Shown: one piece after another, positions 46,628 through 64,000 of the stretch
Numbering within the stretch: position 1 is the stretch's first letter
Layout: each line of letters opens with the position of its first letter
NCBI RefSeq assembly: GCF_003096275.1
Contig: NZ_QENQ01000001.1
Span: forward strand, 1,605,855-1,669,854
Source: Sphingomonas pokkalii
GTDB taxonomy: Bacteria > Pseudomonadota > Alphaproteobacteria > Sphingomonadales > Sphingomonadaceae
Direction of reading: 5' to 3'
Length of the DNA: 64,000 nucleotides
The notes under the pieces: model-generated
The model's input: only the letters and a program-made list of their open reading frames with translations
What the model was told of the DNA's origin: nothing
Databases searched by the model: none
Made by a program: the position numbers and the translations under genes

Positions 46628-47785
46628 TCACCCGACAGGGGTATCGATCGCCGATAGGATCGCCGAGTGGATGCCGATCCGGGCTTCGGCGATGCGCTTG
46701 TTGTCGCGGGTGGGGTTCACCCGGTTCGTCAGCAGCACGATGAAGGCGTGGCGACGCCGGTCGATGTAGAGCGAGGTGCCGGTGAAGCCGGTATGGATCA
46801 ACGCGTCCGGGGATGCGCGCGGACCGGCGAAGCTGCCCGACGCCTCCGTCATGTCCCATCCAAGCGCGCGCGACGTTCCCGGCGGTTCGGACTGGCGGGT
46901 GGTGAAGGCGGCGATGCTGGCGGGTTTCAGCAGTCCCCTGCCATGGTGCAGATAGAGTTCGGCGAGCTTTGCGAGATCCCGTGCGGTCGAGAAGAGGCCG
47001 GCATGTCCGGCGACCCCGCCCAGCACATAGGCATTTTCGTCATGCACCACCCCCCGCACCAGCCGGTGGCGGAACATGTCGTCCTGCTCGGTCGGCGGAA
47101 TCCTGGCGAACTGGCTTGCCGGCGGGTTGAACCCGGTATCCTTCATGTTGAGCGGCGCGAAGGCGTTGTCGTGCAGGAAGCGGTCCAGCGGCTGGCCTGA
47201 GAGGCGCTCGACGATCTCGCCCATCAGGATCATGTTCTCGTCGCGATACTGATAGCGCGAACCGGGTTTCCACGCGACCGGCATGTGATCGATCAGGGCG
47301 AGCAGCTCCTGCCGGTTGCGGCTGTGCTGCCAGAGGAGATCGGTGGTGAACAGGCCGGAGCTGTGGCTGAGCAGGTGGCGGACGGTGATCCGCGCATGTC
47401 CGGGCGTGCCGGCAAAGGCCGGGAGATAGGCGATCACCGGCCGGTCCAGGTCCAGCAGCCCGCGGTTGTAGAGAAGCTCGGCGGCGGTGGTGGTGCCGAC
47501 CACCTTGGTGAGCGAGGCGAGATCGAAGATCGCGTCGCGGGGCATGGGGGGCGCATCCGGTGCGGACGACAGCTTCCCGAAGCTCCGCAGCGCCACCCGC
47601 CGCCCGTGCATACCGATCGCGACGACAGCCCCTGGAAAGGCCTTACCCACCCAGGAGTCGATCTCGTCAAAGGCGGCGGCGAACCGCAGGTCGCGCGCCG
47701 TGGCGGCGGCCGCACGCCCGGCGCGGCCGGCGAACAGCGGCGCGACGGCCATCGCCTGCACAAAGCGCCGCCGTCCGATCCTCAT
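46628..47785 (-). CDS. Exported serine hydrolase, beta-lactamase fold
   Basis: 385 aa from ATG 47785. The N-terminus has a Tat-like signal (RRRFVQAMAVAPLFAGRAG). SxxK is SLTK at residues 91-94; ISHSSGLF-type segment LLSHSSGL; the second motif reads YQYRDENMI rather than the common YSN; a late HTGFTGTS corresponds to the third motif. Such proteins include esterases and D-aminopeptidases. It overlaps the acylase gene by 4 bp and is third in the TonB receptor-acylase-hydrolase operon, so action on peptide or amide products of D-amino acids is suggested. Confidence 0.88.
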   Translation of the reverse strand: MRIGRRRFVQAMAVAPLFAGRAGRAAAATARDLRFAAAFDEIDSWVGKAFPGAVVAIGMHGRRVALRSFGKLSSAPDAPPMPRDAIFDLASLTKVVGTTTAAELLYNRGLLDLDRPVIAYLPAFAGTPGHARITVRHLLSHSSGLFTTDLLWQHSRNRQELLALIDHMPVAWKPGSRYQYRDENMILMGEIVERLSGQPLDRFLHDNAFAPLNMKDTGFNPPASQFARIPPTEQDDMFRHRLVRGVVHDENAYVLGGVAGHAGLFSTARDLAKLAELYLHHGRGLLKPASIAAFTTRQSEPPGTSRALGWDMTEASGSFAGPRASPDALIHTGFTGTSLYIDRRRHAFIVLLTNRVNPTRDNKRIAEARIGIHSAILSAIDTPVG

Positions 47786-50166
47786 GGGTGAAGCTCCGTG
47801 ACGTGGCGAACATGCGCGTCCACCGCCTGACGGCTGAACGGAAACGGCCGCGCCTGGCCGGCCAGCCATGGCGCATAGCTGTCGCGATAATGCGGGGAAC
47901 GGGGATCGATCGACTGGCCGGGCAGAGCGAGGACGCGGCTGGCATCCCAATTGCCGACATCGCAGACGACCAGGAAACTCGCGCCGTGGCTGACGGTGCA
48001 GTCGCGGGCGGCGACATAGCCGCGCGCCATCACGGTGAAGCCGTCGCCGCCCGAACGGCCGCCCTCGATCGCGGGCAGCGCCGCGGCGATTGCGGGGCGG
48101 CTCGACAGTGGGTGGCGGAGGACGACGCGGTGGGCATCGCCCCAGCGCCAATCCGCCGGATCGGCACCGAATGTGCGCAGCGCCGCCTCCCAGGCCCGCC
48201 CGAGCGACGCCGCCAGCAGCGCATCGCGCGCCGCTTCCGGCTGGGCCCCAAGCCGTGCGTCGGGGCGGGTCAGCAGCGCGAGCATCGGCCGCGGATCGAT
48301 CGACTTGACGAGGTCACGCGCGGCTTCCGGCACGATCGCTTCCAGGCAGGCCTTGCCGAGTTCGATCCACAGCATCTCGAACAGCGCGGCGGGGGCGCTG
48401 TCCACCCCCAGCCGGGCGTCCCAGCCGCGCAGCATGGCGGCCGCCTGCGCCGCCGTGCCTTCGAGCCCCCGCGGCAACAGCGGCACCAGCGCCTGCGCGG
48501 GCAGCGACAGATCGTCATGCTGCAACGCCACGCTGTCGTTCAGGCCGTGTCTGCCCGGCCTGCCCAGCACCTGCGCGATGCGATCATAGCGATAGGGCGC
48601 GTTCCAGGTGAAGCTCGTCACGCGCTTGCCCGGCGACCAGTCCGGCGGAAGGTTGAACTGGTTGGCCGAGGCGAACCAGCCGCTTTCGGGGTTCCGGAGC
48701 GACGGCATCTCCGCGGCCGGGAGGATGCCCTGCCAATCGTATTGCCCGTCGCCCGGCACCGGCAACAGCCCGTCATGCCGGGTGCGGACCGGCACATGGC
48801 CGAGCAGCCGCCAGCCGATATTGCCGTCGATATCGGCATAATGGAGGTTGGTCGGCGCCACATGCAGCCGCGCCGCCTGGGCGAGCTCGTCCCAGTTCCT
48901 GGCGAGGTTGAGCGCGATGATGGCGAAGGTCATGTTGGCGCCGGGACGCAGCGAGACCGAGGCCATCGCGGTGGCGCGGTGACGGGCGGGATCGTGCAGC
49001 AGGACCGGGCCGTGTTCGGCGGTGCGGACCGTCACCACCACATCTGCGGCGTCCTTCACACGGATCACTTCGGTCACCGTTGCGAACCGCTTCCATTGGC
49101 CCTGGTGGCGGTAGCATTCGGGATCGTCGGGCTTCAGTTCCAGGACGTACAGATCTTCCTGATCGATATGCGAATTGGTCCGTCCGAAAGCGTAATAGTC
49201 GGTATGGCCCTGCATGATGCCGGGCATCCCCGGGCTGCCGGCACCGATCACGTCGAAGCCGGGCGCGGTCAGATGGGCGAGGTGGCGGGGCGAAAAGCCG
49301 CCGATGCCGAGATGCGGATCATTGGCGAGGATCGGGCGACCGGTGGCGGAACGCGCTGCCGAGATCGTCCAGGCGTTGCTGCCATGGGCTTCGCGATCGA
49401 GCCGATCATAGACCGGATCGTAATAGGCAAGCACCGCATCGCTCCAGGGCAGGGGACCTTCGGTTTCGCCGAGGATGCCCAGATCGGCCTTCGACACGGC
49501 CGCGAGATCGAGACCCTCGGGCAGCCGGGGCTTCCAATCCCAGGCCAGCGGCGCGATCAGCGCGTCGAGATCCAGCAATCCGCGCGCGGCCAGCTGGGCG
49601 CGGCGGACCTCGTCGGCGGTGCTGCCCATATCGCCGCTGCGGATGCGAACCAGATCGGCAATGTGCCAGTGCAGCGGCCGCAGCTGCAGCACGCCATATT
49701 CGGGTGGCAGCAACGACGGGTCTGCTTCCAGCTCGGCGATGCGGGCGTTGATCCCGTCGACATAGGCACGGGCACAGGCTGCGACGTCGGCAGGCAGGCT
49801 GGCCAGCTCCGCGTCGACATCGCCGCGATAGAGGCGCAGGCGGGCGGCATGATCATGGGGGACAAAGCGGGCGCCGAACGCTTCCGCCAGCCGGCCGAGA
49901 TCACGTCGCAGCTGAAGGTCGATCTGGAACAGCCGATCGCGGGCGACGACATAGCCCTGCCCGAAATAGGCATCGGGAATGGAGGACGCCCGGATATGCG
50001 GCACCCCCCATGCGTCGTCGGCGATGGTCACGGGGCCCCGTATGCCCATGGCGTTCACCCTCCTCGCAGGCTTGGTACGCCCAATCCGCGCCATCGCCGT
50101 GCTGCCCCATCCGGCACAGGCGATCGCCGCACAGGATTGGAGGAGGGCGCGGCGGGGATGGATCAC
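47782..50166 (-). CDS. Penicillin-acylase-family (Ntn) hydrolase 1
   Basis: 794 aa from GTG 50166, which begins an export-type sequence (RRALLQSCAAIACAGWGSTA); the frame extends upstream antiphase to the receptor gene. Family motifs: DAWGVPHIRASS, ARDRLFQIDLQLR, and the autoprocessing site GSNAW with nucleophile Ser about 263, followed by GRPILANDPHLGIGGF. A mature enzyme would be alpha/beta chains in the periplasm. It hydrolyses an acyl amide; homologues act on penicillin G, acyl-homoserine lactones or N-acyl amino acids. About 38 bp after the receptor stop, same strand. Paralogue of the acylase at 53419. Confidence 0.92.
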   Translation of the reverse strand: MIHPRRALLQSCAAIACAGWGSTAMARIGRTKPARRVNAMGIRGPVTIADDAWGVPHIRASSIPDAYFGQGYVVARDRLFQIDLQLRRDLGRLAEAFGARFVPHDHAARLRLYRGDVDAELASLPADVAACARAYVDGINARIAELEADPSLLPPEYGVLQLRPLHWHIADLVRIRSGDMGSTADEVRRAQLAARGLLDLDALIAPLAWDWKPRLPEGLDLAAVSKADLGILGETEGPLPWSDAVLAYYDPVYDRLDREAHGSNAWTISAARSATGRPILANDPHLGIGGFSPRHLAHLTAPGFDVIGAGSPGMPGIMQGHTDYYAFGRTNSHIDQEDLYVLELKPDDPECYRHQGQWKRFATVTEVIRVKDAADVVVTVRTAEHGPVLLHDPARHRATAMASVSLRPGANMTFAIIALNLARNWDELAQAARLHVAPTNLHYADIDGNIGWRLLGHVPVRTRHDGLLPVPGDGQYDWQGILPAAEMPSLRNPESGWFASANQFNLPPDWSPGKRVTSFTWNAPYRYDRIAQVLGRPGRHGLNDSVALQHDDLSLPAQALVPLLPRGLEGTAAQAAAMLRGWDARLGVDSAPAALFEMLWIELGKACLEAIVPEAARDLVKSIDPRPMLALLTRPDARLGAQPEAARDALLAASLGRAWEAALRTFGADPADWRWGDAHRVVLRHPLSSRPAIAAALPAIEGGRSGGDGFTVMARGYVAARDCTVSHGASFLVVCDVGNWDASRVLALPGQSIDPRSPHYRDSYAPWLAGQARPFPFSRQAVDAHVRHVTELHP

Positions 50167-50204
50167 GCGCAGCCCCACAGAGGCGCCATCCCCGCCCTGG
50201 CTGC

Positions 50205-53162
50205 TCACCGCATCTCGAACCGGACGCCGACGCGGAAGGCGCGCCCCAGCAGGTCCGAATAGGTGCTGTTCGCTGCCAGCCCGGTTTCGGGCAGCAGGAT
50301 CGGATCGCGATCGAGCAGGTTGGTGACGTTCAGGAACACCTCGCCGCGCATGCGATCGCCCTGCGTGATCTTGGCGGTCAGGTTCAGATCGACATAGGCC
50401 GCACCCGAAATGTGGTTGTTGTCGATCGTCGGGAACTGCGAGACCGTCGCGGCGGGGCGCCCGACCGGGCAATTTCCGTTGCAGACGATATAGTTGTTAC
50501 CATAGGTGCCGCTGCTCACGCCGCGTACGGTGCCGGTGACCGAGAAGTGATCGGTCTCGTAGCTGGCGTTGACGCGATAGATCCACTTGGGCGGGCTGAT
50601 CCCGCTCAGCTGGCCGACGGCATCGACGGGCACCACGTTCGGCACGCCGCTGTCGGTGATGTTGTGGATGTAGCGGGTCGCCAGGCCGTGCAAGGTGATG
50701 GCGCCGGGCGCTTTGCCGAAGATCTGGTCGAGCGCGACGCGGTAGCCCGCATCGAAATCGATGCCACGTACCCATTGGCGGGCGAAGTTGAACGGGCTGG
50801 CCTTGAAGAACAACTCGCGATCGCCCGTCGGATCGGGACCATAGGCGTTGCAGAACTCTTTCCGCCCTTCATAGCAGCGGTTGATGATGTCCTGCGCGAA
50901 GAACTGGCCGATCGCATCCTTCAGCTTGATGTCGAACCCGTCGACTGAGGCCGAGAAGCCGCGCAGGAAGCGGGGCTGGAGCACGACGCCGATATTGACC
51001 GAGTCCGCCTTTTCCGGACGGAGATTGGGGTTGCCGGTGGTCAGTTCGCGGAAGGTGACGGTGGTACGCCCGGTCGCCGGGTCGGTCAGCGTATTGGTGC
51101 GCGAGGTGCCCGACTGGAACAGCTCGCTGAGGTTGGGCGCGCGGATGTCGCGCGAGCGGGTGGCGCGGAAGCGGATATCCTCGATCGGCTGCCAGGTGGC
51201 GCCGACCTTCCACGTCGTGACATAGCCCGAGGTGGAATAATCGGTCGCACGGACCGCGCCGTTGAACTCGATGCCCAGCCCGAGCGGGACGACGGTTTCG
51301 AGATAGGCTTCCTTGACGTTGTAGCTGCCGAAGGTGGGCAGGAAGTTGCCGACCGACCAGCCGGTCTGGAAGTCGGTAGGCACGAAGCCGGAAACCGATT
51401 CCTTGCGATATTCGCCACCCACCGCGATGCTGACGTCGCCCGCCCAGGTCGCGAACGGCGTCAGCGAGAGGTTGGCGCCCACGACCGTCTGCTTCAGCTT
51501 CTGGTCGCGATAGGGATCGCCGAGCACATAGTCGATCGCGGCGGGGTTGGTCACGCCGAGGCCCAGCCGGTTGAGCGGCACACACCCATTGGTCGGTGCG
51601 GTGAGCGACGAGCGGCACACCGTCGTCCCCGCCGGCACGCCGAGCGCGTTGCCTGCAGGCGCTGCGACGGCATCGGTCGCGTTGGCCATGCGGGTGGTGT
51701 TCATGATGTCGCGCAACTGCTCGTGCGCATTGGTCTCGCCATATTGGGCATAGGCGTTCCACACCGCCTTCTTGCCGAACGCCTGGAACTCGCCCTCCGC
51801 GCCGATCGCGTAACGCTGCACATCGCGGGTGCTGTTGTTCTTGCGATAGGGCAGGTCGACGGCGGTGGTGCCGATCGTCACCGAGGTGACGGCGGTGCGC
51901 TCCGCCGGGGTGATGAGCCCGGCCGAAACGGCGTTGGCCAGGGCGGTCTGCAAATAGGGATTGGCGGCGCTGAGCGTGGTGCTGGTGGTCAATTGCGGGC
52001 CGGCGTTGAACAGCGTCTTCTGCCAGTTGTACGATGCCTCGGCGAAGATCGACACGCCGCTCGCGACGTCGTAGCTCACGCGGCCGAACACGCCGCGGCG
52101 ATCGTCGTCGGCGTCGAGGCCGATGTTGCGGCCCTGATCGTTCAGCTGCCAGTCGCCGCCCTGGGTGAGCGACGGAGCGGTGGCACCGCCAAGGGCAGGG
52201 AAGGTGAGGGCGCCATATTGGAACTGGCGCGCGGCACCGCCATTGCCGAAATAGATGCCACGCAGCCGGTTGGCCACGCCACCGCTGGAATTGAGGATGA
52301 TCCCGCCCGGGGTCGCGTTGGCGACGCCCACCGGCTGCCGGATCAGATATTGCGGCTGGCCGTTGGTGTTGGTGTAATTCGGGTTGGTGATGCGCACCCG
52401 CCCGCGCGCATTCCAATCGCGGTCGACCTGGAAGATGCCGTCGCGGTGCGCCCACTCGCCGCTCAGCAGGACATGGCCGCGATCGTCGCTGCCGAAGGCG
52501 GTGCCGGCGGCGAGGCTGAACGAATAGTTGGCGCCGTCACCGCGCCCGGTGATGCCGCTGTCGGCGCTGGCCTTGATGCCGGTATATTTCTTGTCGAGCA
52601 CGAAGTTGACGACGCCTGCCACGGCGTCCGAACCATAGGCGGCCGAAGCGCCGCCGGTGACGATCTCGACGCTCTTCACCAACGCCTGCGGGAAGGTGTT
52701 GACGTCGACCAGCCCGGTTACGGACGATCCTACCGTCCGTCGACCGTCGAGCAGCACCAGCGTGCGAATCTCGCCCAGCCCGCGCAGGTTGAGTGCGTTG
52801 ATGCCGGCGAGGCCGGAGCTGATCGCCAGCCGCGAATTGGAGGGTCGGGTGGAGCCTGCCAGTGCGGGCAACTGGTTGACGAAATCGGCGATGTTGTTGG
52901 TCGGGGACGTGTTGCGGATATCCTCCTGCGTCGCCACCGTCAGCGGCGTCGGCGATTGGAAGCCGTTGCGCACGATGCGTGTCCCGGTGACGATCAGGTC
53001 GTCGGGGGAGACGCTCTCCGCTTCGCTGCGCGCCTGGGCTGCCTCGGTGCCGACGGATGTCTCGGTCTGGGCGAAAGCCGGCGCTGCCAGCGCCATCGAC
53101 AAGGCGGTCAGCCCCGTCCCGGCTGAAAGTAGCCGGCGCCATGATCCGTCGGTCATCTGCAA
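50205..53162 (-). CDS. TonB-dependent outer-membrane receptor
   Basis: 985 aa. Signal peptide (about 1-31, ending FAQ), TonB-box-like DDLIVTGTRI at about 54-63, plug domain (NIADFVNQLPALAG, LNLRGLGEIRTLVLLDGRRT, VEIVTGGASAAYGSDAVAGV) and a long beta-barrel ending in a terminal aromatic-rich strand (RAFRVGVRFEMR). It imports a substrate too big for porins. The neighbours (acylases, D-aminoacylase, D-Glu enzymes) suggest acylated peptides or amino acids. First gene of a leftward operon, divergent from the second acylase. Confidence 0.95.
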   Translation of the reverse strand: MQMTDGSWRRLLSAGTGLTALSMALAAPAFAQTETSVGTEAAQARSEAESVSPDDLIVTGTRIVRNGFQSPTPLTVATQEDIRNTSPTNNIADFVNQLPALAGSTRPSNSRLAISSGLAGINALNLRGLGEIRTLVLLDGRRTVGSSVTGLVDVNTFPQALVKSVEIVTGGASAAYGSDAVAGVVNFVLDKKYTGIKASADSGITGRGDGANYSFSLAAGTAFGSDDRGHVLLSGEWAHRDGIFQVDRDWNARGRVRITNPNYTNTNGQPQYLIRQPVGVANATPGGIILNSSGGVANRLRGIYFGNGGAARQFQYGALTFPALGGATAPSLTQGGDWQLNDQGRNIGLDADDDRRGVFGRVSYDVASGVSIFAEASYNWQKTLFNAGPQLTTSTTLSAANPYLQTALANAVSAGLITPAERTAVTSVTIGTTAVDLPYRKNNSTRDVQRYAIGAEGEFQAFGKKAVWNAYAQYGETNAHEQLRDIMNTTRMANATDAVAAPAGNALGVPAGTTVCRSSLTAPTNGCVPLNRLGLGVTNPAAIDYVLGDPYRDQKLKQTVVGANLSLTPFATWAGDVSIAVGGEYRKESVSGFVPTDFQTGWSVGNFLPTFGSYNVKEAYLETVVPLGLGIEFNGAVRATDYSTSGYVTTWKVGATWQPIEDIRFRATRSRDIRAPNLSELFQSGTSRTNTLTDPATGRTTVTFRELTTGNPNLRPEKADSVNIGVVLQPRFLRGFSASVDGFDIKLKDAIGQFFAQDIINRCYEGRKEFCNAYGPDPTGDRELFFKASPFNFARQWVRGIDFDAGYRVALDQIFGKAPGAITLHGLATRYIHNITDSGVPNVVPVDAVGQLSGISPPKWIYRVNASYETDHFSVTGTVRGVSSGTYGNNYIVCNGNCPVGRPAATVSQFPTIDNNHISGAAYVDLNLTAKITQGDRMRGEVFLNVTNLLDRDPILLPETGLAANSTYSDLLGRAFRVGVRFEMR

Positions 53163-53418
53163 TCCCCCTTCATATATGCGCCTGGAGCGTGATTTCCCTG
53201 CGGACGGTCATGTTCTTGTCGCTGATCCGTGCTGTAGGCGATGGTGCCGGGCGAATGCGCGCCAGGTCAAGGCTCCCGCGACAATCGATCGTTGGGTATG
53301 CCATAGCCTTGGATTATGGTGCGATTGCGCTGGCGTTGCGCCGCCTTATGCTCCCCTCCACGCGCCACGCCGCCCCTTCGAGGAGCATCGCGCCGCGTGG
53401 CTGGCACGAGGGGACATC
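53163..53418. promoter_or_regulatory. Divergent promoter region of the D-amino-acid cluster
   Basis: 256 bp between the TonB receptor (leftward) and acylase 2 (rightward). Both main transcripts of the cluster must start here. I cannot identify a certain -35/-10 or a LysR box; the LysR gene lies 7 kb to the right. Confidence 0.5.
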
Positions 53419-55755: not shown

Positions 55756-57338
55756 AGCGCCTTGTCCTGACTGCCCTGGTCTGGTGTGCCGCCACGGCGG
55801 CGAGTGCACCGCGCGTCGATGTCGTGATCCGGGGCGGCACCATCTATACGGGGGCGGAGGCGCCGCCCTTTGTCGGCGATGTCGAGCTGGAAGGCGATCG
55901 CATCGTCTATGTCGGCCGTGCGCGCGGGACGACGGCGGGCACGGTGATCGACGCGCGCGGCATGATCGTCGCGCCCGGCCTGATCGACGCGCACACCCAT
56001 CCGGACAGCTATATCCGTTCGCCCGATGCCAAGGCACGGCTCAACCTGCCCTGGCTGGCCCAGGGCGTTTCCACCGTGGTGATCGGCGTCGACGGCTATG
56101 GCACGTTCGAGGTCGCCAAGGATGCCCGCGCGCTGGAGGCGAGCGGCATCGGCACCAATGTCGTGCCGTTCGTCGGCTTCGGCGCGATCCGCGAGCATGT
56201 GCTGGGGCAGGACGCCCGCGCGCCGACCCCGGCGGAACTGGCGGAGGAAAAGCGCCTTGCCGCCAGCGCGATGTGCGAAGGCGCCTATGGCCTTTCCACC
56301 GGCCTGTTCTACCCGCCGCAGAGCTTCGCCAAGACCGACGAAGTGGCCGCCGTCGCCAGCGAATCCGGCAAGCGCGGCGGCATGTACGACACCCATCAGC
56401 GCGACGAATCCAACTATTCGATCGGCCTGCTCGCTTCGACCCGGGAGGCGATCGAAATCGGCCGCATCGCCGGCACGCCGGTGCATTTCGCCCATCTGAA
56501 GGCGCTCGGCGTGCCGGTGCAGGGGCAGGCGCCCGCGCTGATCGCCACGATCGAGGCGGCGCGGCGCGCGGGCCAGACCGTCACCGCCGATCAGTATCCC
56601 TGGCTCGCCTCGGGCTCCAGCGTCGATGCCGCGCTGGTGCCGAGCTGGGCGATGGATGGCGGCTACCGGAAGCTGCTCGCCCGCTTCGACGATCCGCCGA
56701 CGATGGCGCGGCTGAAGACCGAGATGGTGGAGAATCTGCGGCGGCGGGGCGGGGCGGAATCGCTGCTGCTGACCGCGCAGGACCAGCCCTGGACCGGCAA
56801 GACGCTGGCGCAGATGGCGCGCCAGTGGCAGCTATCGCCGATCGACGCGGCGATCCGGATCCTGCGCACCCCCGATGCGGCGGGCACCGGCCCGGCGGGC
56901 ACGGACGTGGCCAGCTTCAACATGATCGATCGCGATGTCGATCTGATCATGCGGCAGCCCTGGGTGGTCACCTCGTCGGACGGATCGAACGGGCACCCGC
57001 GCCAATATGCCACCTTCCCACGGCTCTATCGCACCTATGTCGTCGAGCGGAAGGTGATCACCCTCCAGCAGTTCATCCGCCGCTCCACCGGCGCGACGGC
57101 GGACATGTATCGCATCCCGCAGCGCGGCTATCTGCGGAAGGGCTATTATGCCGATGTCGTGGTGCTCGATCCCAAGACCTACGCGCCGCGTGCCGATTAC
57201 CTCCATCCGCGTATCCCCAGCGTCGGCGTGGCGGCGTTGTTCGTCAACGGCCGGCTGGCGCTGTCCGACAGCGCGGCGACGGGCGTCGCGGCGGGGCGGG
57301 CGCTGCTGCGGCCCCGGCCCAATGGCTGCGGCCAATAG
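55752..57338 (+). CDS. N-acyl-D-amino-acid deacylase (D-aminoacylase), exported
   Basis: 528 aa. Signal peptide (MKRLVLTALVWCAATAASA). Amidohydrolase superfamily: metal ligands in GLIDAHTHPDSY (His 81, His 83), the family hallmark GAYGLSTGLFYPP, DTHQRDESNY, VHFAHLKALG and SDGSNGHPRQYATFPR with the catalytic Asp. It should free D-amino acids from their N-acyl (or carbamoyl) forms. Location outside the cytosol and link to two acylases and D-Glu enzymes suggest N-acyl-D-glutamate or a D-amino-acid peptide as substrate. Confidence 0.92.
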   Translation: MKRLVLTALVWCAATAASAPRVDVVIRGGTIYTGAEAPPFVGDVELEGDRIVYVGRARGTTAGTVIDARGMIVAPGLIDAHTHPDSYIRSPDAKARLNLPWLAQGVSTVVIGVDGYGTFEVAKDARALEASGIGTNVVPFVGFGAIREHVLGQDARAPTPAELAEEKRLAASAMCEGAYGLSTGLFYPPQSFAKTDEVAAVASESGKRGGMYDTHQRDESNYSIGLLASTREAIEIGRIAGTPVHFAHLKALGVPVQGQAPALIATIEAARRAGQTVTADQYPWLASGSSVDAALVPSWAMDGGYRKLLARFDDPPTMARLKTEMVENLRRRGGAESLLLTAQDQPWTGKTLAQMARQWQLSPIDAAIRILRTPDAAGTGPAGTDVASFNMIDRDVDLIMRQPWVVTSSDGSNGHPRQYATFPRLYRTYVVERKVITLQQFIRRSTGATADMYRIPQRGYLRKGYYADVVVLDPKTYAPRADYLHPRIPSVGVAALFVNGRLALSDSAATGVAAGRALLRPRPNGCGQ

Positions 57339-57409
57339 CCCAGCGTTATAGGCGGCGGTGCGAGCGCGATTGGCAGCGCTGGCCCCGCCGCCCCTATCAT
57401 GCTCGCATC

Positions 57410-58456
57410 ATGACCATTCCCGCTCCCTACCTCCTCTATCTCGGCCATTCCGATGACGAGATCGGCCTCAAGACCTCGCGCGGCCTGGCTGCCTTTCGCG
57501 GCGACGATTGCGTGGGGGAATGGCGGCACGACGATTGCCCCTTCACCCTCGGCCTGCCGCGCATGGACGCCGCCGCCGGCCGCGCCGCCGGTGCGCGCAC
57601 GCTGGTGCTGGGGATCGCCAATCCGGGCGGGCGCTTTCCCGACTGGATGATCGGCGATGCGCTCACCGCGATCCGCGCCGGGCTGAATATCGCCTGCGGA
57701 CTGCACCAGCGGCTGCGCGACGTGCCCGAACTGGTCGCGGCAGCGGCGGAGGTGGGCGTCACCCTGTTCGATGTGCGCGATGCGCCCGAAGATTTGCCGG
57801 TGGGCAATGGCCGGCGGCGGGCGGGCAATCGGCTGCTCACCGTCGGCACCGATTGCTCGGTCGGCAAGATGTACGCCACCTTGTGCCTGCGCGATGCGCT
57901 GCGGGCGCGGGGCGTTGCCGCCGATTTCCGTGCCACCGGCCAGACCGGGATCCTGATCGCCGGGGACGGCGTGCCGCTCGACGCGGTGATCGCCGATTTC
58001 ATCGCCGGCGCGATCGAGACGCTGGCGCCGGCGCGCGACGATGGTGGCTGGGATCTGATCGAGGGGCAGGGATCGCTGTTCCATCCGGCCTTTGCCGGGG
58101 TGTCCACCGGCCTGCTCCACGGCGCGCAGCCGGCGGCGCTGGTGCTGTGCCACGATCCGTTGCGCCCCCATATGCGCGGCCTGCCGCACTTTCCGATGCC
58201 GGGGCTGGCCGAATGCCTGGAGGCCAATCTCCGCGTCGCCCGGCTGACCAGCCCGGCGGTGCGCGCGGTCGGCGTGGCGCTCAACACCGCCAAGCTGGAC
58301 GAGGCAGAGGCCCGTCGGCTGTGCCGCGATACCGAGGATGCGCTGGGCCTGCCCTGCACCGATCCCTATCGCTTCGGTTCGGAACCGATCCTCGACTGCT
58401 TGCTGGAGACGCCATGCGCCGCACCCTCGACGCTCGCCACGACCGCTTCCCGCTAA
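57410..58456 (+). CDS. dgcN: DUF1611 family protein, DgcN-type D-glutamate N-acetyltransferase
   Basis: 348 aa from ATG 57410. The N-terminal part has a Rossmann-like half (RTLVLGIANPGGRFPD); the C-terminal half has a P-loop-like GTDCSVGKMYATLCLRDAL, TGQTGILIAGDGVPLDAVIA and DLIEGQGSLFHPAF. In the DgcN-DgcA pathway of D-glutamate breakdown, DgcN acetylates D-Glu and DgcA racemises the product. The gene pair here has the same order and an overlap of 43 bp. The symbol is by homology and context. Confidence 0.85.
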   Translation: MTIPAPYLLYLGHSDDEIGLKTSRGLAAFRGDDCVGEWRHDDCPFTLGLPRMDAAAGRAAGARTLVLGIANPGGRFPDWMIGDALTAIRAGLNIACGLHQRLRDVPELVAAAAEVGVTLFDVRDAPEDLPVGNGRRRAGNRLLTVGTDCSVGKMYATLCLRDALRARGVAADFRATGQTGILIAGDGVPLDAVIADFIAGAIETLAPARDDGGWDLIEGQGSLFHPAFAGVSTGLLHGAQPAALVLCHDPLRPHMRGLPHFPMPGLAECLEANLRVARLTSPAVRAVGVALNTAKLDEAEARRLCRDTEDALGLPCTDPYRFGSEPILDCLLETPCAAPSTLATTASR

Positions 58457-59412
58457 GCAAGCCCTTCCGCATCGCGCGCGGGGTGAAGACCGCCGCCGAT
58501 GTGGTGACGGTGACGATCGGCCAGGGCAGCGTGGCGGGGCGGGGCGAAGGCGTGCCCTATCCGCGCTATGGCGAGACGATCGAAGCCGCGCTTGCCGAGA
58601 TCGCGGCGGTACGGCCGCTGATCGAGCAGGGCGCCACCCGCGCCGATATCGCCGTGGCGATGCGGGCCGGGGCCGCGCGCAACGCGGTCGATTGCGCGCT
58701 ATGGGATCTGGAAGCGCGGCTGGCCGGCGCCAGCGTCGCTGTGCTGGCCGGTATTGCGCCGGTCGATGCGCTGGCCTCGGCGATCACCATCGGCATCGAT
58801 AGCCCCGAGGCGATGGCGCGCGCCGCGCGGGGGGCGGCGAATGTGCCGCTGCTCAAGATCAAGGTCGATCGCGACGCGGCCGACGAACAGATTGCCGCCG
58901 TCCGCGCCGTCGCCCCCGCGCCCCGGCTGATCGTCGATCCCAATGAAAGCTGGCGGGTGGAGGATCTGGCCGACCGGCTGCCGATGCTGCGAGCCCACCG
59001 GGTCGATCTGCTCGAACAGCCGGTGCCGGCGGGCGAGGATGCGGGGCTGGCGGCGCTGGCCGGCGCGATCCCGATCTGCGCCGACGAGGCGCTGCATATC
59101 CGTGCCGACCTCGATCGGCTTGCCGGCCTGTACAGCCATGTCAACGTCAAGCTCGACAAGACCGGCGGCTTGACCGAAGCTCTGGCGCTTGCGGCAGAAG
59201 CGAAGGCGCGGGGGTTCGGACTGATGGTGGGCTGCATGGTGTGTTCGTCGCTGGGGATCGCCCCGGCGATGCTGGTCGCGGGCGGAGCGGCGTTCGTCGA
59301 TCTCGACGGACCGCTCTGGCTGGCCGAGGACCGGGTGGGCGGCGCGCGCGATGATGGAGGCATCCTCGCCGCGCCCGCACCGGGCTTTTGGGGGACGCCG
59401 GCTTGCGCCTGA
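58414..59412 (+). CDS. dgcA: Enolase-superfamily epimerase, DgcA-type N-acetyl-D-Glu racemase or dipeptide epimerase
   Basis: 332 aa from ATG 58414, overlapping DgcN by 43 bp. Muconate-lactonising subgroup: KIKVDRDA (general base Lys), Mg ligands in DPNESW, LLEQPVPAGED and CADEALH, second base in VKLDKTGGL. Related to L-Ala-D/L-Glu epimerases; with a DgcN neighbour the racemisation of N-acetyl-glutamate is the better guess. Either way D-Glu becomes usable L-Glu. Confidence 0.88.
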   Translation: MRRTLDARHDRFPLSKPFRIARGVKTAADVVTVTIGQGSVAGRGEGVPYPRYGETIEAALAEIAAVRPLIEQGATRADIAVAMRAGAARNAVDCALWDLEARLAGASVAVLAGIAPVDALASAITIGIDSPEAMARAARGAANVPLLKIKVDRDAADEQIAAVRAVAPAPRLIVDPNESWRVEDLADRLPMLRAHRVDLLEQPVPAGEDAGLAALAGAIPICADEALHIRADLDRLAGLYSHVNVKLDKTGGLTEALALAAEAKARGFGLMVGCMVCSSLGIAPAMLVAGGAAFVDLDGPLWLAEDRVGGARDDGGILAAPAPGFWGTPACA

Positions 59413-60668
59413 TCCGCGGCTGGTTCGCCATTCCGCTGTGGAAGCGCGTGGTCGGCGGGTTGCTGCTGGGCGTCGCGATCGGCCTGTTCTGGCCCGAGGC
59501 GGCGGGCGCGATCGGGCTGGTCGGCGCGTTGTTCGTCCGGTTGATCAAGATGCTGGTGGTGCCTGTGGTGCTGATCACCATTGCTGCAGGCATCGCGACG
59601 CTGGGCGATCCGCGACGGCTGGGGCCGATCGGCGGGCGCACCGTCGGGCTGTTCGCCGTCACCACGCTGATCGCGGTATCGATCGGCATGGCGACAGGGC
59701 TGCTGCTGCGTCCCGGTGTGGCGATGCCGCTGGGCGGCGTGGTACCGCATCCGCTGGGGCCGCCGGTGCCGCCGTCCGAGCAGTTGCTGGCGATCGTGCC
59801 GCTCAACATCTTCGACGCGCTGGTGCGCGGTGACATGCTCGCGATCACTTTCATTGCGGTGTTGCTCGGCAGCGGCAGCGTGCTGGCCGGAGAGGCAGGG
59901 AAGCCCGTCGTCGCCCTGCTGCAAGGGCTGTCGGCGGTGCTGCTGCATATCGTTCGCGCAGTGATGGAAGTGACGCCGTTCGGCGTGCTGGCGCTGATCG
60001 CCCAGGCGGTGGCGGCGAACGGCGCGGCGGTGTTCGTCCATGTCGGCTGGCTCGCGCTGGGGGTGGTGCTCGCCTCGCTGATCCAGATGCTGGTGGTCCA
60101 TGCCGCGATGATCGGGCTGGTCGCGCGGCTGCCGGTCTTCCGCTTCTTCCGCGGGATCGTCGATGCGCTGGTCGTCGCCTTCTCGACCGCTTCATCCTCG
60201 GCCACCTTGCCGGTAGCGCTGCGGGTGGCGCAGGACAATCTCGGTGTGTCGCGCGGCGTCGCCTCCACCGTGCTCCCGCTCGGCGCGGCGATCGGCAAGG
60301 ACGGCACCGCCATGTATGTCGGGCTGCTCGGCCAGTTTGCCTTGCAGGCGCTGGGGATCGTGCCCGACGCGACGATGCTCGTCACGATGTTGCTGACCGG
60401 CGCACTCGCCGCGTTCGGCACGGCGCCGATCCCGTCCGCCTCCCTGTTCATGCTGGCGGCGATGCTCTCGGCAGTCGGCGTGGGGGCGGAGCAGACTGCG
60501 CTGATCGTCGGGCTGGTGTTGCCGTTCGACCGGCTGCTCGACATGACGCGCACCGTGCCGTCCGCTTCGGCCAACCTCGCGGTCGCCACGCTGGTCGCGC
60601 GCGGGGAGGGCGAGCTGGATGTGGCGCGCTTTCGCGGGCCGGTGGCCGATTGGGATCGGGAGCGCTAG
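59388..60668 (+). CDS. Dicarboxylate/amino acid:cation symporter (DAACS family)
   Basis: 426 aa from TTG 59388 (a TTG five codons later also fits). Eight or more transmembrane segments and the family's re-entrant loops: the Ser-rich FSTASSSATLPVAL, LPLGAAIGKDGTAMYVG and the late LPFDRLLDMTRTVPSASANL. It resembles glutamate/aspartate carriers, and would bring glutamate made or freed in the periplasm into the cytosol. It overlaps the epimerase gene by 25 bp. Confidence 0.93.
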   Translation: MGDAGLRLIRGWFAIPLWKRVVGGLLLGVAIGLFWPEAAGAIGLVGALFVRLIKMLVVPVVLITIAAGIATLGDPRRLGPIGGRTVGLFAVTTLIAVSIGMATGLLLRPGVAMPLGGVVPHPLGPPVPPSEQLLAIVPLNIFDALVRGDMLAITFIAVLLGSGSVLAGEAGKPVVALLQGLSAVLLHIVRAVMEVTPFGVLALIAQAVAANGAAVFVHVGWLALGVVLASLIQMLVVHAAMIGLVARLPVFRFFRGIVDALVVAFSTASSSATLPVALRVAQDNLGVSRGVASTVLPLGAAIGKDGTAMYVGLLGQFALQALGIVPDATMLVTMLLTGALAAFGTAPIPSASLFMLAAMLSAVGVGAEQTALIVGLVLPFDRLLDMTRTVPSASANLAVATLVARGEGELDVARFRGPVADWDRER

Positions 60669-60677
60669 GCTGCATCC

Positions 60678-61562
60678 ATGAACCTGCGCCATATCGAGAT
60701 TTTCCACGCCGTATACGTCAACGGTTCGGTCTCCGCCGCTGCCCGCGCGCTCAACGTTTCGCAGCCTTCGGTGTCGAAGACGCTCCGCCATGCCGAGAGC
60801 CTGCTCGGGTTCGAGCTGTTCCAGCGCTCCAATGGCCGGCTGCTGCCGACCGAGGATGCCCATGCGCTGTTCGCCGATGTCGCCGATATCCAGGAACGGG
60901 TCCGTGCGCTGCGCGAGGCGGGGCGCAATCTGCGGATCGGGGCGGGGACGACGCTGCGCATCTCGGCGCTGCCCAGCCTGGGGCTGGGGGTGCTGCCCGA
61001 TGCGGTGTCGCGCTTCCTGGCGCGGCGGCCGAACGTGCGCTTCGATCTGCAGACCGTCCACCACGACGATCTGCTCCGCAAACTCTATGAGCGCGAAAGC
61101 GACATCGCCATCGCCAGCGAGCCGCCGCGCGGCGTGGCGCTTACCCATAGCTGGCTCGGCGAAGGCGAACTGGTCGTCCTCTACCGCGAGCGCGACATGC
61201 CGGACGCGCCGCCGCGGCTGGAACTGTCGCAACTCACCGGGCGGCCGCTGATCTCGCTCAAGGGCAGTGGACCGATCGGCAAGCTGCTGTCGGAGGAGAT
61301 CGACCGGCTCGGCCTGGTGCTCGACGAAGTGGTGGTGGCGCGGACCTTCTACATTGCCGCGGCGCTGGTGCGGGCGGGCGTGGGGCTGGCGATCGTCGAC
61401 AATTTCACCGCGGCGGCCTCGATGGTGCCGGGCCTCGCGATGCGGCCGCTGCGCCCGTCGATCACCTTCGACGTGCACGCCATCCATCTGCTCGATCGGC
61501 CGCCCTCGATGTTGGCCGCCGAGTTTCTGAGCCTGCTGAGCGAGGAGATCGAGCGTCGATGA
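60678..61562 (+). CDS. LysR-family transcriptional regulator
   Basis: 294 aa. N-terminal helix-turn-helix (LRHIEIFHAVYVNGSVSAAA, LNVSQPSVSKTLRHAESLLG) and a substrate-binding domain. It starts 9 bp after the symporter and overlaps the carboxypeptidase by 4 bp (ATGA), so it sits inside the operon. It probably senses D-Glu or an acyl derivative and controls the cluster. Confidence 0.92.
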   Translation: MNLRHIEIFHAVYVNGSVSAAARALNVSQPSVSKTLRHAESLLGFELFQRSNGRLLPTEDAHALFADVADIQERVRALREAGRNLRIGAGTTLRISALPSLGLGVLPDAVSRFLARRPNVRFDLQTVHHDDLLRKLYERESDIAIASEPPRGVALTHSWLGEGELVVLYRERDMPDAPPRLELSQLTGRPLISLKGSGPIGKLLSEEIDRLGLVLDEVVVARTFYIAAALVRAGVGLAIVDNFTAAASMVPGLAMRPLRPSITFDVHAIHLLDRPPSMLAAEFLSLLSEEIERR

Positions 61563-62950
61563 CGTGGAGCCTGTTGCTGCCCCTGCTGTTGCTGGGCGCG
61601 CCCGCCGATGCGCCGCTGCCCCCGGAGGTTGCGGAGGCGCTGGCGAAGGCGCCGCCGGGTACCCGGATCGGTCTGGTCGTGGTCGATTCCCAAGGACGGG
61701 AGATCGTCGCGTTGCGGCCGGACGAACGTTTCATTCCTGCCTCGAACACGAAGCTGTTCACCACTGCCGCCGCCTTCGCTACGCTCGACGTGGCAGCCCC
61801 CGATGCGGCGGGCGGCGCGACCGTGGCGCTGGAGGGGCGTGGCACGCCGGACGTGGTACTGGCGGGGCATGGCGATGCCCGCCTTTCGTCCGCGCCCGAT
61901 TGTCACGTCGATTGCCTGGCGGAACTGGCGGCGGCGGTCGCACGGCAGACGCGGGCAGTAGGCGATGTCGTCGGTGACGACAGGGCCTTTGCCGACGAAC
62001 GCTGGCCGCAGGGCATGAGCTGGAACAACATGGCCGGGCCCTATGGTACCGGAATCTCCGCGCTTACGCTGGACGACAATATCGTCACGCTGACCGTGGC
62101 GCCCGGCGCGCCGGGAATGCCCCCGAAAGTGACGGGCGACGGCTATTACCGGATCGACAATGGTGCGACGACCGGCGCCGCGGAAAGCCGCCGGACGCTG
62201 GCGGCCGCGCGCCTGCCGGGCAGCGACCTGGTGCGCCTGACGGGCAGCATCGCGGCCGCCAGCGCCCCCTATCCGCTGGCGGTGGGGATAGACGATCCGG
62301 CGCATCGGGCGGCGTGGCGGTTCGCGCAGATGCTGCGCGCGGCGGGCGTGAAAGTGAACGGGCGGATCACGGTCCGGCATCGCCCGCCCGGCACCGATGC
62401 CGCCCCGACATCGCTGCCGGTGCTCGCGCGGCTGACGCCCGCGCCGCTCGCCGAGGATCTGCGCCAGACCAACAAGATGAGCCAGAATCTCCATGCCGAG
62501 CTGTTGCTGCGCCGGCTGGCGCCGGGCGGATCGGTCGGGGCCGGCCAGGCCGTGGTGGATGGGGTGCTCGCCCGCGCGGGCGTGGCAAAGGAAACCTATG
62601 AATTTGCCGATGGCGCCGGCATGTCCAGCTACAACCGGGTGACGCCAAGGGCGACGGTGGCCCTGTTGCGCTGGGCGGACAGCCAGCCCTGGGGAACGGC
62701 ATGGCGCGCCACCTTTCCCGTCGCTGCGACGGATGGGACGCTTGCCCGGCGGTTCATCGGTACGCCGCTGGCGGGTCGGCTATGGGCGAAGACCGGCACG
62801 CTCAACGCCGCCAATGCGCTGGCCGGCACCATGACCGCCGCGAGCGGGCGGACGCTGACGTTCGCCGCCTATGCCAACGACATGCCGGGTGGTGCAAGCG
62901 CAACGGGGGCGATCGACGCGGCACTCGTTGCGATCGCGGTGGCCAACTGA
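61559..62950 (+). CDS. dacB: D-alanyl-D-alanine carboxypeptidase/endopeptidase (PBP4, peptidase S13)
   Basis: 463 aa, within the family range. Signal peptide-like start (MTWSLLLPLLLLGAPADA), SxxK in ASNTK (Ser 62), SxN in KMSQNLHAELL, and KTG in WAKTGTLNAANALAG. PBP4 enzymes cut D-Ala-D-Ala and cross-links in peptidoglycan. Its presence in a D-amino-acid cluster links the pathway to cell-wall peptides. Confidence 0.93.
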   Translation: MTWSLLLPLLLLGAPADAPLPPEVAEALAKAPPGTRIGLVVVDSQGREIVALRPDERFIPASNTKLFTTAAAFATLDVAAPDAAGGATVALEGRGTPDVVLAGHGDARLSSAPDCHVDCLAELAAAVARQTRAVGDVVGDDRAFADERWPQGMSWNNMAGPYGTGISALTLDDNIVTLTVAPGAPGMPPKVTGDGYYRIDNGATTGAAESRRTLAAARLPGSDLVRLTGSIAAASAPYPLAVGIDDPAHRAAWRFAQMLRAAGVKVNGRITVRHRPPGTDAAPTSLPVLARLTPAPLAEDLRQTNKMSQNLHAELLLRRLAPGGSVGAGQAVVDGVLARAGVAKETYEFADGAGMSSYNRVTPRATVALLRWADSQPWGTAWRATFPVAATDGTLARRFIGTPLAGRLWAKTGTLNAANALAGTMTAASGRTLTFAAYANDMPGGASATGAIDAALVAIAVAN

Positions 62951-63035
62951 GCCGGCGATCGCATAACCGGGCGGTAGGCAGGCCATAGCCTTCAGGTATC
63001 TGGCCGCGCTGCTGCTCCCCGCGCATAATTCGGGC

Positions 63036-64000
63036 ATGTCGAGACACTTCGTTCCTGCTCGCCGCTTCCTGCTCCCTGCATTGCTGATGGGAACCGCGCT
63101 GTTCGCCGCCGCAGCCGCCCCGGCGGAACCCGATCACCGCCCGGCGATCGCCCGGTTGCTCGCGCTTCCGATGGCGGTGGGGCTGGTAGGGGCGAGCGAC
63201 CAGCCGGTATTCGCCTGGGTGGAACTCCGCGCGGGTGTTCGCAACATCTGGCTTTCGTCCAGCCGGGAACAGGCGCCGCGCCGCCTCACGGACCGGACCA
63301 TCGATGACGGCGTCGATCTCCATAGCCTCGCGTTAAGTCGCGACGGCACGTCCATCGCCTGGGTTCAAGGTGGCGATGCCGAATTTCCCGATCTGCCGCC
63401 GCCCAACAGCGGCCATGCGGCAAAGGGCGGCAGCCAAACCATCTGGGTCCGCGCGACGGCTGAGGGCGCGGTGGCTCGGTCGCTGGGGGAGGGGCACCTG
63501 CCGGTGTTCTCGCCCGATGGCCGCAGCATCGCCTTTGTGGCAGGCGGGACGCTGCTGCTTGCGTCGGTGGCGGAGGGCGGGCCTGCCACGCTCGCCCAAC
63601 TGCCCGGCACGATCGAGTATCTGTCCTGGTCGCCGGACGGCAAGCGGCTGCTTTTCGTCAGCCGGCGGGGTGATCACGGCCTGGTCGCACTGTTCGATCT
63701 GGCCAGCGGTGCACTTCGCTACCCCGATCCGGCGATGACGCAGGACGTATCGCCGATCTTCTCGCCCGACGGCCGCTCGATCGCCTTTGTCCGGTCCACC
63801 CCGCCGCCTTTCGGCGCCACCGGCACAGAGGCTTCCTATTGGAGCATACGCGTCGTCGATCTGGCGACGGGCCAGGCCCGCACCGCCTGGCAGGCGGCGG
63901 TCGGGGCGGGCGGGGACTATTATGGTACCCGGACTGCCAATCTGTTCTGGAGTGCCGACGATCGGCTGCTCTTCCCCTCCGAGGCGAGCGGCTGGGTGCA
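63036..64000 (+). CDS. S9-family (prolyl oligopeptidase) peptidase, N-terminal part, cut by window edge
   Basis: From ATG 63036 the frame runs off the window (321 codons seen). Signal peptide (about 1-30). WD/PD40-type beta-propeller repeats are seen: LPVFSPDGRSIAFVAGG, EYLSWSPDGKRLLFVSR, SPIFSPDGRSIAFVRS. This is the N-terminal propeller of DPP4/acylaminoacyl peptidase-type enzymes; the catalytic alpha/beta-hydrolase domain would lie beyond 64000. Same direction and 85 bp after dacB, so probably a part of the cluster, releasing dipeptides from the imported material. Confidence 0.85.
   Translation, partial: MSRHFVPARRFLLPALLMGTALFAAAAAPAEPDHRPAIARLLALPMAVGLVGASDQPVFAWVELRAGVRNIWLSSSREQAPRRLTDRTIDDGVDLHSLALSRDGTSIAWVQGGDAEFPDLPPPNSGHAAKGGSQTIWVRATAEGAVARSLGEGHLPVFSPDGRSIAFVAGGTLLLASVAEGGPATLAQLPGTIEYLSWSPDGKRLLFVSRRGDHGLVALFDLASGALRYPDPAMTQDVSPIFSPDGRSIAFVRSTPPPFGATGTEASYWSIRVVDLATGQARTAWQAAVGAGGDYYGTRTANLFWSADDRLLFPSEASGWV

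Follow-up and report, generated by a model that had tools for sequence, protein, structure and literature searches.

Gene organization of the locus

The stretch analysed here, 64,000 nucleotides (nt) of the Sphingomonas pokkalii genome (assembly GCF_003096275.1, contig NZ_QENQ01000001.1, positions 1,605,855 to 1,669,854; hereafter the window, whose numbering is used throughout), ends in a divergent locus at 46628-64000 that includes the genes for DgcN and DgcA, two enzymes of D-glutamate (D-Glu) metabolism. Eleven genes, three on the minus strand and eight on the plus strand, were verified there by open reading frame listing, inspection of starts and profile searches, and a previous sequence-only reading, which had described an eleven-gene divergent locus, holds in its genes and coordinates. 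Pfam was run on the first ten genes, and the eleventh, which crosses the window end, was scored as a whole gene from L195, the downstream stretch of the same genome.

The minus strand carries an S12 (beta-lactamase-fold) serine hydrolase of PBP4B-like type with twin arginines in its signal region (46628..47785; PF00144, 227.7 bits), a probably periplasmic, D-succinylase-like Ntn (S45) acylase, called acylase 1 (47782..50166; PF01804, 606.9 bits), and a TonB-dependent outer-membrane receptor belonging to a clade tied to DgcN loci (50205..53156; PF00593 and PF07715). On the plus strand lie a second D-succinylase-like Ntn (S45) acylase with a twin-arginine signal, acylase 2 (53419..55755; PF01804, 558.6 bits), a D-aminoacylase-type amidohydrolase whose N-terminus resembles a signal sequence (55752..57338; Amidohydro_3, 60.7 bits), the DUF1611 protein DgcN, a D-Glu N-acetyltransferase (57410..58456; NF041892), the enolase-type N-acetyl-D-Glu racemase DgcA (58414..59412; NF042940), an SDF/DAACS-type symporter, probably for D-Glu (59388..60668; PF00375, 313.2 bits), a LysR-type protein presumed to regulate the module (60678..61562; PF00126 and PF03466), the S13 D-Ala-D-Ala carboxypeptidase/endopeptidase PBP4/DacB (61559..62950; TIGR00666), and an S9 prolyl-oligopeptidase-type hydrolase (63036..64000 in the window; whole gene 63036-65132, 698 aa, PF00326 126.1 bits).

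With the starts chosen, neighbouring genes overlap by 4 nt (S12 hydrolase and acylase 1, acylase 2 and D-aminoacylase, LysR and PBP4), 25 nt (DgcA and symporter) or 43 nt (DgcN and DgcA), the other neighbours on one strand lie 9 to 85 nt apart, and 262 nt separate the divergently oriented genes of the receptor and acylase 2. Acylase 1 likely starts at the GTG at 50166, not at the upstream TTG that opens the longest frame. In the window's genome (4.22 Mb, 18 contigs) there is one DUF1611 gene, one S13 gene and two Penicil_amidase genes; because both Penicil_amidase genes and the sole DUF1611 and S13 genes sit at this locus, the grouping is more than chance.

Continuation of the locus beyond the window

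Two further stretches of the same genome were inspected, and the locus was found to continue in L195, from which coordinates past 64000 were read. On the minus strand follow a BadF-family kinase (65258-66142; PF01869), a GH84 hexosaminidase with no evident signal sequence (66155-67219; PF07555) and another S12 hydrolase, closest to PBP4B but below the cut-off of that model (67210-68604; 195.3 bits, cut-off 385). The plus strand then carries an SSF symporter recognized by Pfam (68632-70287) and a SIS-domain protein of the MurQ-type N-acetylmuramic acid 6-phosphate etherase (70302-71192; L195:8157-9047), which passes two NCBIfam subfamily cut-offs (PRK05441, 334.8 bits against 168; PRK12570, 267.3 bits against 255). 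An aldolase-type gene, a fatty-acyl regulator and a methylmalonyl-CoA mutase come next, so that the island seems to stop after the etherase; on the left, the adjoining myo-inositol oxygenase, sugar-type transporter and LacI regulator look unrelated. The island thus delimited measures about 24.6 kb, from 46628 to about 71190, with its left 70% in the window and its last 7 kb outside. The D-Glu half of the earlier picture stands, and to it must be added a muramic-acid half lying outside the sequence on which that picture was based.

In a single relative's locus (L006) a D-lactate dehydrogenase gene adjoins the kinase gene (830.8 bits, cut-off 391). D-lactate is the other product of the MurQ etherase reaction, so that this gene is a further hint of peptidoglycan.

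Predicted conversion and uptake of D-glutamate

The DgcN-DgcA pathway is credited to Yu et al. 2023 (ISME J 17:537), as cited in PMC12363236. At the present locus DgcN reaches 493.6 bits against the NCBIfam equivalog NF041892 (cut-off 480), and DgcA, encoded by the overlapping gene, reaches 436 bits against the equivalog NF042940 (cut-off 400). Among solved structures, DgcN is closest in sequence to 7xrj (E 8e-98) and DgcA to 4gfi; DgcA has the motifs KIK, DPNE, EQP, ADE and KLDK. An L-Ala-D/L-Glu epimerase was considered for DgcA and rejected, the PRK15129 model giving 317.7 bits, below its cut-off of 343. The roles of the pair, acetylation of D-Glu by DgcN and racemization of the product by DgcA, are taken from the NCBIfam family names, and two reports describe the pair as converting D-Glu to L-Glu (PMC10845958, PMC12363236). 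Since both proteins lie above their cut-offs, this predicted conversion, already put forward in the sequence-only reading, is well supported. The best NCBIfam models for the symporter are DctA and GltP, with scores under the cut-offs, and its substrate is probably D-Glu.

Acylases, amidohydrolase and cell-wall hydrolases

For both acylases the nearest solved relative is the D-succinylase 7ea4 (E 1e-148 for acylase 1 and 4e-133 for acylase 2), and penicillin G acylases come next (about 1e-57 and 1e-48, respectively). The GSN motif at the processing site is kept in both, at residue 262 of acylase 1 and residue 254 of acylase 2. D-succinylase is reported to use N-succinyl amino acids of both configurations, with a preference for the D form (PMC7431475, PMC11241749). 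Kinship with this enzyme points to D-amino-acid chemistry; whether the group removed is fatty acyl, peptidyl or gamma-glutamyl cannot be read from it.

The amidohydrolase is nearest to the D-aminoacylase 1rjp/1m7j (E 4e-58), followed by the N-acyl-D-glutamate deacylase 3gip (E 2e-43). It lies under the cut-off of every curated subfamily (best NCBIfam model PRK09061, 145.6 bits against 340) and is assigned at the level of the Pfam superfamily. Its motifs are HTH, THQRD, AHLK, SSDG and HPR, and HTH, TH, AHLK, SDG and HPR, presumably with catalytic or metal-binding roles, line up with 1rjp; the cysteine that we take to be a metal ligand of D-aminoacylases pairs with Asp in this alignment. Some enzymes of the D-aminoacylase group also cleave L-Xaa-D-Xaa dipeptides, an activity that would fit L-Ala-D-Glu.

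PBP4/DacB passes TIGR00666 (208.4 bits, cut-off 107.8) and has the SxxK, SxN and KTG motifs as SNTK at 62, SQN at 308 and KTG at 411. The S12 hydrolase at 46628..47785, with SLTK at residue 91 and HTG at 331, has PRK03642 (PBP4B) as its best NCBIfam model, at 144.2 bits under a cut-off of 385. A class C beta-lactamase was rejected as its identity (60.8 bits, cut-off 415).

Conservation of the gene neighbourhood

From a longer list of named loci that encode a DgcN relative, the best 80 were retrieved together with flanks of at most 10 kb and searched by tblastn with set identity limits. DgcA was found in 71 of these 80, LysR in 51 (at least 45% identity), the D-aminoacylase in 50, the DAACS symporter in 44, PBP4 in 28, the receptor in 25, the acylase in 22, AmpG in 21 and gamma-glutamyltransferase (GGT) in 12. 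The sequence-only reading had proposed that the receptor, the periplasmic amidases and the symporter act as one module and had named a lack of linkage elsewhere as evidence to the contrary; these genes are linked in other genomes. Among the best 80, the closest loci are mostly from Sphingomonas and other sphingomonads. One record, L002 (QDFQ01000001.1), is titled Arthrobacter sp. TPD3018 and contains the same locus at 71-89% identity; its DgcN is nearer to that of the window than the DgcN of any named Sphingomonas in these loci, and its organism label is probably wrong.

Linkage is kept while gene order varies, with 22 distinct core orders in 25 loci (26 of the 28 places over the DgcN cut-off were used, the window included; L139 and L140 were left out, and L138 gave no DgcN). 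A single inherited block was rejected on the basis of this variety, although some of the differences arise only from the ends of the fetched stretches. In many relatives an AmpG-family gene lies in the locus beside the S12 gene and PBP4.

In 160 gene-called loci, which pool the named and other loci and in which the same species may be counted twice, the acylase occurs in 31, GGT in 13 and both in one, the GGT loci being mostly outside the sphingomonads. A representative of these transferases scores 513.9 bits against TIGR00066 (cut-off 357.85). DgcN and GGT occur together in L040, L043, L046, L047, L049, L053, L054, L063, L065 and L079, which are gammaproteobacterial and Caulobacteraceae records, and several of these loci also have a GltS-type glutamate symporter, another route to D-Glu.

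Co-occurrence and linkage in genome samples

Because the 80 named loci had been picked by similarity to the window, the statistics were moved to an evenly drawn sample of 199 genomes of the family, the window's genome included. DgcN was found in 50 of them at E 0.001 or better and over its cut-off in 27. S13 PBP4 above 140 bits occurs in 28 genomes (two copies partial or split), namely in 18 of the 27 DgcN-positive genomes against 10 of the 172 others, and in 16 of the 18 its distance from DgcN is at most 15 kb, where 0.18 would be expected. Acylases above 540 bits, the D-succinylase band, occur in 22 genomes (15/27 against 7/172) and within the same distance in 10 of 15 (0.16 expected). The MurQ-type etherase, at E 1e-20 or better, occurs in 16 genomes (8/27 against 8/172) and is linked in six of eight (0.07 expected), the seventh lying at 15.05 kb and the eighth on another contig. 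AmpG is present at E 1e-60 or better in 193 of the 199 genomes, and a second copy at this same level is found in 16 of the 27 DgcN-positive genomes against 2 of the 172 others.

The receptor, scored over four candidates per genome, occurs at 50% identity or more in 21 genomes (19/27 against 2/172) and within 15 kb of DgcN in 18 of 19 (0.19 expected). Three receptors have no DgcN over the cut-off nearby: those of G021 and G072 each have PBP4 within 1.5 kb, and that of G091 has an acylase within the same distance. In all 20 other genomes with a listed receptor of at least 50% identity, at least one of DgcN, PBP4 and an acylase is close to a copy. The next 20 receptors by rank (45-49% identity, 16 genomes) are not enriched (3/27 against 13/172) and are linked in none of three.

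The prediction that PBP4 and MurQ accompany DgcN was then tested in a sample of 201 genomes of the genus, from which the three shared with the family sample were removed to leave 198. PBP4 was found in 75 of 81 DgcN-positive genomes against 32 of 117 others and within 15 kb in 58 of the 75 (about 0.63 expected), and MurQ in 40 of 81 against 3 of 117 and within 15 kb in 14 of the 40 (about 0.35 expected). The two Fisher values of this sample, 8e-16 and 1.5e-21, are too small at face value since the genomes are related. Within 20 kb the number of MurQ cases rises to 16; of the others, 6 share a contig with DgcN at a greater distance and 18 are on a different contig. MurQ therefore tracks DgcN strongly by presence and adjoins it in about a third of the genus cases. 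Chance neighbourhood was rejected on the copy-number and distance tests in both samples.

A candidate LysR operator

In an alignment of the divergent receptor/acylase region of the window and nine relatives, read by eye, the interrupted palindrome CCATA-N9-TATGG is present with at most one mismatch in nine of the ten sequences, L004 being without the box. It includes a T-N11-A core, which we take to be typical of LysR targets. The window has one exact copy, at 53301..53319 in this same divergent promoter region, and 20 sites with at most two mismatches, where 9.1 would be expected.

For a wider search the loci were grouped by hand into type I (the window and 67 of the 160 loci), type II (52 loci, from the family sample) and a "non-sphingomonad" group of 36 other named loci, which holds at least three sphingomonads (L044, L077 and L080); type II holds one locus over the DgcN cut-off (L140), and L040, L050, L139, L192 and L193 were left ungrouped. 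With a 9-base spacer and at most one mismatch, the 68 type I loci gave 61 matches in 46 loci, 57 of them intergenic, and about half of these 57 fall in the LysR/DgcN or the receptor/acylase interval. The other spacers from 5 to 13 gave 1 to 8 intergenic matches each. The version with a 7-base spacer looked enriched, with 46 matches, and was rejected, since 44 of these are inside genes, and most of the examples come from a single conserved segment at the beginning of DgcA. The 9-base box also gave 11 matches (6 intergenic) in type II and 18 (16 intergenic) in the third group, so that it is not limited to window-like loci. The LysR protein of the locus may bind this box. A scan of the divergent receptor/acylase region for sigma-70 promoters and terminators found none.

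Copies with two mismatches lie at 57333-57351 before DgcN, at 62983-63001 before the S9 gene and at L195:6472-6490 in the divergent S12/SSF promoter region; sites of this kind occur near chance level.

Proposed pathway and alternative interpretations

The locus is probably a peptidoglycan-fragment utilization island with a D-Glu arm and a muramic-acid arm. This interpretation follows from the company that DgcN keeps, because PBP4, MurQ and AmpG, whose substrates according to the NCBIfam and Pfam family names are D-Ala-D-Ala wall peptides, muramic acid and muropeptides, accompany it. In the proposed pathway, cell-wall peptides or muropeptides would pass the outer membrane by way of the TonB receptor. 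Once in the periplasm, they would be trimmed at D-Ala and at peptide bonds by PBP4, the S12 hydrolases and the S9 peptidase, and D-Glu would be released from its amide bonds by the D-aminoacylase and both Ntn acylases. The free D-Glu would then enter the cell through the DAACS symporter to be acetylated by DgcN, and DgcA would convert the acetylated product to its L epimer. The sugar moiety would be imported by the SSF symporter, split by the presumably cytoplasmic GH84 enzyme and phosphorylated by the BadF-type kinase, and the MurQ-type etherase would convert muramic acid 6-phosphate to N-acetylglucosamine (GlcNAc) 6-phosphate and D-lactate. The LysR protein would work through the CCATA-N9-TATGG boxes. 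In Caulobacter, MurQ is reported to be absent, and the muramic acid of the cell's own wall is recycled through the MurU route (PMC13046382). Because this organism, also an alphaproteobacterium, recycles without MurQ, the presence of MurQ in a D-Glu island suggests diet rather than recycling.

Several observations weigh against this interpretation. The etherase lies under the equivalog TIGR00274 (245.6 bits, cut-off 302), a cut-off reached in none of the 199 family and none of the 201 genus genomes, and the kinase lies under its best model, the N-acetylglucosamine kinase NF046058 (229.5 bits, cut-off 370). The window's genome has a single AmpG gene, 2.4 Mb from the locus, with no second copy, and the AmpG of one relative's locus is slightly under its cut-off (321.7 bits against 350). 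Among the best 80 named loci the kinase occurs in only five, MurQ in four, and GH84, SSF and D-lactate dehydrogenase in one each; only 8 of the 27 DgcN-positive family genomes have the MurQ type, and in 26 of the 40 genus genomes that have it MurQ lies more than 15 kb from DgcN or on another contig. The sugar arm is thus an optional partner, since MurQ is patchy and often distant from DgcN. PBP4, for its part, also occurs in 10/172 and 32/117 genomes without a DgcN over the cut-off, and neither a muramoyl-L-alanine amidase nor a gamma-D-Glu-diaminopimelate endopeptidase was recognized among the genes scanned. Receptors of 50-52% identity occur in five loci (L115, L122, L129, L131 and L137) that have D-aminoacylases and lack PBP4 and the acylase, so that the ligand of the receptor may be smaller than a muropeptide. 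Finally, the limits of 540 bits for the acylase and 50% for the receptor were chosen after the score gaps had been seen, and kinship among the genomes means that the Fisher and linkage values overstate independence.

The main alternative is that N-acylated D-Glu compounds, such as lipopeptides or N-acyl-D-amino acids, are scavenged, their acyl groups being stripped off and the D-Glu used by DgcN and DgcA; PBP4 and the adjacent sugar genes would then serve a different function. It would suit the kinship of the acylases with D-succinylase and of the amidohydrolase with D-aminoacylase and N-acyl-D-glutamate deacylase, as well as the related loci that consist of receptor, D-aminoacylases and DgcN/DgcA without PBP4. 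However, these kinships fit cell-wall peptides too, because an L-Ala-D-Glu peptide is itself an N-acyl-D-Glu, and the linkage of PBP4 (16/18 and 58/75), the co-occurrence of MurQ in two samples and the second AmpG would be left unexplained; this alternative is considered unlikely. The sequence-only reading had placed its emphasis on an acylated D-Glu compound from family names only, and that emphasis does not give the best interpretation. From its list of substrates, the cell-wall peptide has gained ground through the PBP4 linkage, the MurQ-type etherase, kinase and hexosaminidase past the window and the extra AmpG in relatives, and neither lipopeptide nor polyglutamate is singled out.

Poly-gamma-glutamate or other gamma-glutamyl peptides, including D-Glu cyclic peptides such as microcystin, might instead be the substrate, with the Ntn acylases acting as gamma-D-glutamyl hydrolases, as the replacement of the acylases by GGT in DgcN loci mostly outside the sphingomonads would suggest. 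Since neither polymer explains PBP4, GH84, the kinase, MurQ and AmpG, and the mutual exclusion of acylase and GGT may reflect lineage only, this is improbable. An equally slight chance is given to a module for recycling of the cell's own wall combined with beta-lactam defence, in which AmpR/AmpC/AmpG/DacB-like proteins would answer wall damage. A LysR regulator, S12 proteins, PBP4 and, in relatives, AmpG are indeed grouped, but the S12 protein is nearer to PBP4B than to class C beta-lactamase (144.2 against 60.8 bits, both under the cut-offs), and the LysR gene sits with DgcN and the symporter, the presumed box marking the receptor and DgcN promoters. Moreover, AmpG is already present in 193/199 genomes, and recycling needs neither an outer-membrane receptor nor a D-Glu catabolic pair.

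Within the preferred peptidoglycan interpretation, a more specific version can be put forward tentatively, and is more doubtful than the interpretation as a whole: a TonB receptor clade dedicated to D-Glu peptides of peptidoglycan would feed a self-contained wall-eating island, in which the acylases would act as gamma-D-glutamyl (or L-Ala-D-Glu) amidases and release D-Glu periplasmically, the task of GGT in other DgcN loci. The acylases are suspected of this cleavage because GGT replaces them in other lineages and because relatives of D-succinylase accept dicarboxylic acyl groups. Lineage alone could explain the exchange of acylase and GGT.

A second type of putative D-peptide locus

A second, paralogous type of locus was seen in L150, L153, L156, L157, L162 and others among L140-L191. 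It has varying subsets of an HTH-cupin regulator, S12 hydrolases, DgcA, a POT peptide transporter, another TonB receptor, a DgcN under the equivalog cut-off, an M19 dipeptidase and an unnamed protein, and looks like a parallel system for D-amino-acid dipeptides. A conserved hydrophobic protein of about 375 aa lies beside the type II DgcN (L156:8368-9510, minus strand, and 31 relatives); its representative has no Pfam or NCBIfam match, and by eye it presumably resembles YkvI-type membrane transporters. The DgcN family is strongly expanded in some sphingomonads, since 4 to 7 matches per genome, a few of them fragments, were found in G085, G140, G163, G150, G010, G168, G223, G244 and G354. In another genome a TonB receptor gene near a DgcN locus (G101:C15:109481-112252) has one in-frame TAG that was read through and is possibly a decayed copy.

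Relation to known systems and biological meaning

The individual pieces, namely DgcN/DgcA, MurQ, AmpG and muropeptide scavenging in Tannerella, are already known, and the island is seen here as a variant of nutrient-uptake loci. It shares with the DgcN-DgcA pathway the same two enzymes, both over the equivalog cut-offs of those names, but here they are set among a receptor, periplasmic hydrolases, PBP4 and a muramic-acid arm. The ampG-murTKQ operon of Tannerella forsythia likewise combines a MurQ etherase with the uptake of muropeptides, and growth of that organism on external muropeptides has been demonstrated; it belongs to another phylum, however, the text of the report has no mention of TonB, and no D-Glu arm is described in its available passages (PMC5388701). 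The peptidoglycan recycling and GlcNAc clusters of Caulobacter crescentus resemble the island in having AmpG, NagK and, in the GlcNAc cluster, a TonB-dependent receptor, whereas, in the text available, the MurU route is used without MurQ and the receptor takes GlcNAc (PMC13046382). The D-succinylase of Cupriavidus sp. P4-10-C (PDB 7ea4/7eby), like both acylases an S45 Ntn enzyme and their nearest solved relative, has been used on N-succinyl amino acids, with no link to D-Glu or the cell wall in the available parts of the reports (PMC7431475, PMC11241749). No description of DgcN/DgcA joined with a TonB receptor, PBP4 or MurQ was found in searches of a library of open-access papers, outside which most subscription journals lie.

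In soil and in the sea, D-Glu and muramic acid are markers of bacterial residues that persist for a long time. If one island with its own receptor took up both, this would account for the ability of Gram-negative bacteria to live on wall fragments of external origin, which differs from the recycling of their own wall. Such an island would also provide the D-Glu that the DgcN/DgcA pathway uses in nature and would suggest in what physiological context D-succinylase-like acylases work; its receptor clade and its operator are concrete objects for testing. If the more specific version given above is correct, sphingomonads would have a full external peptidoglycan diet, of both amino acid and sugar, with the D-Glu half under one LysR regulator.

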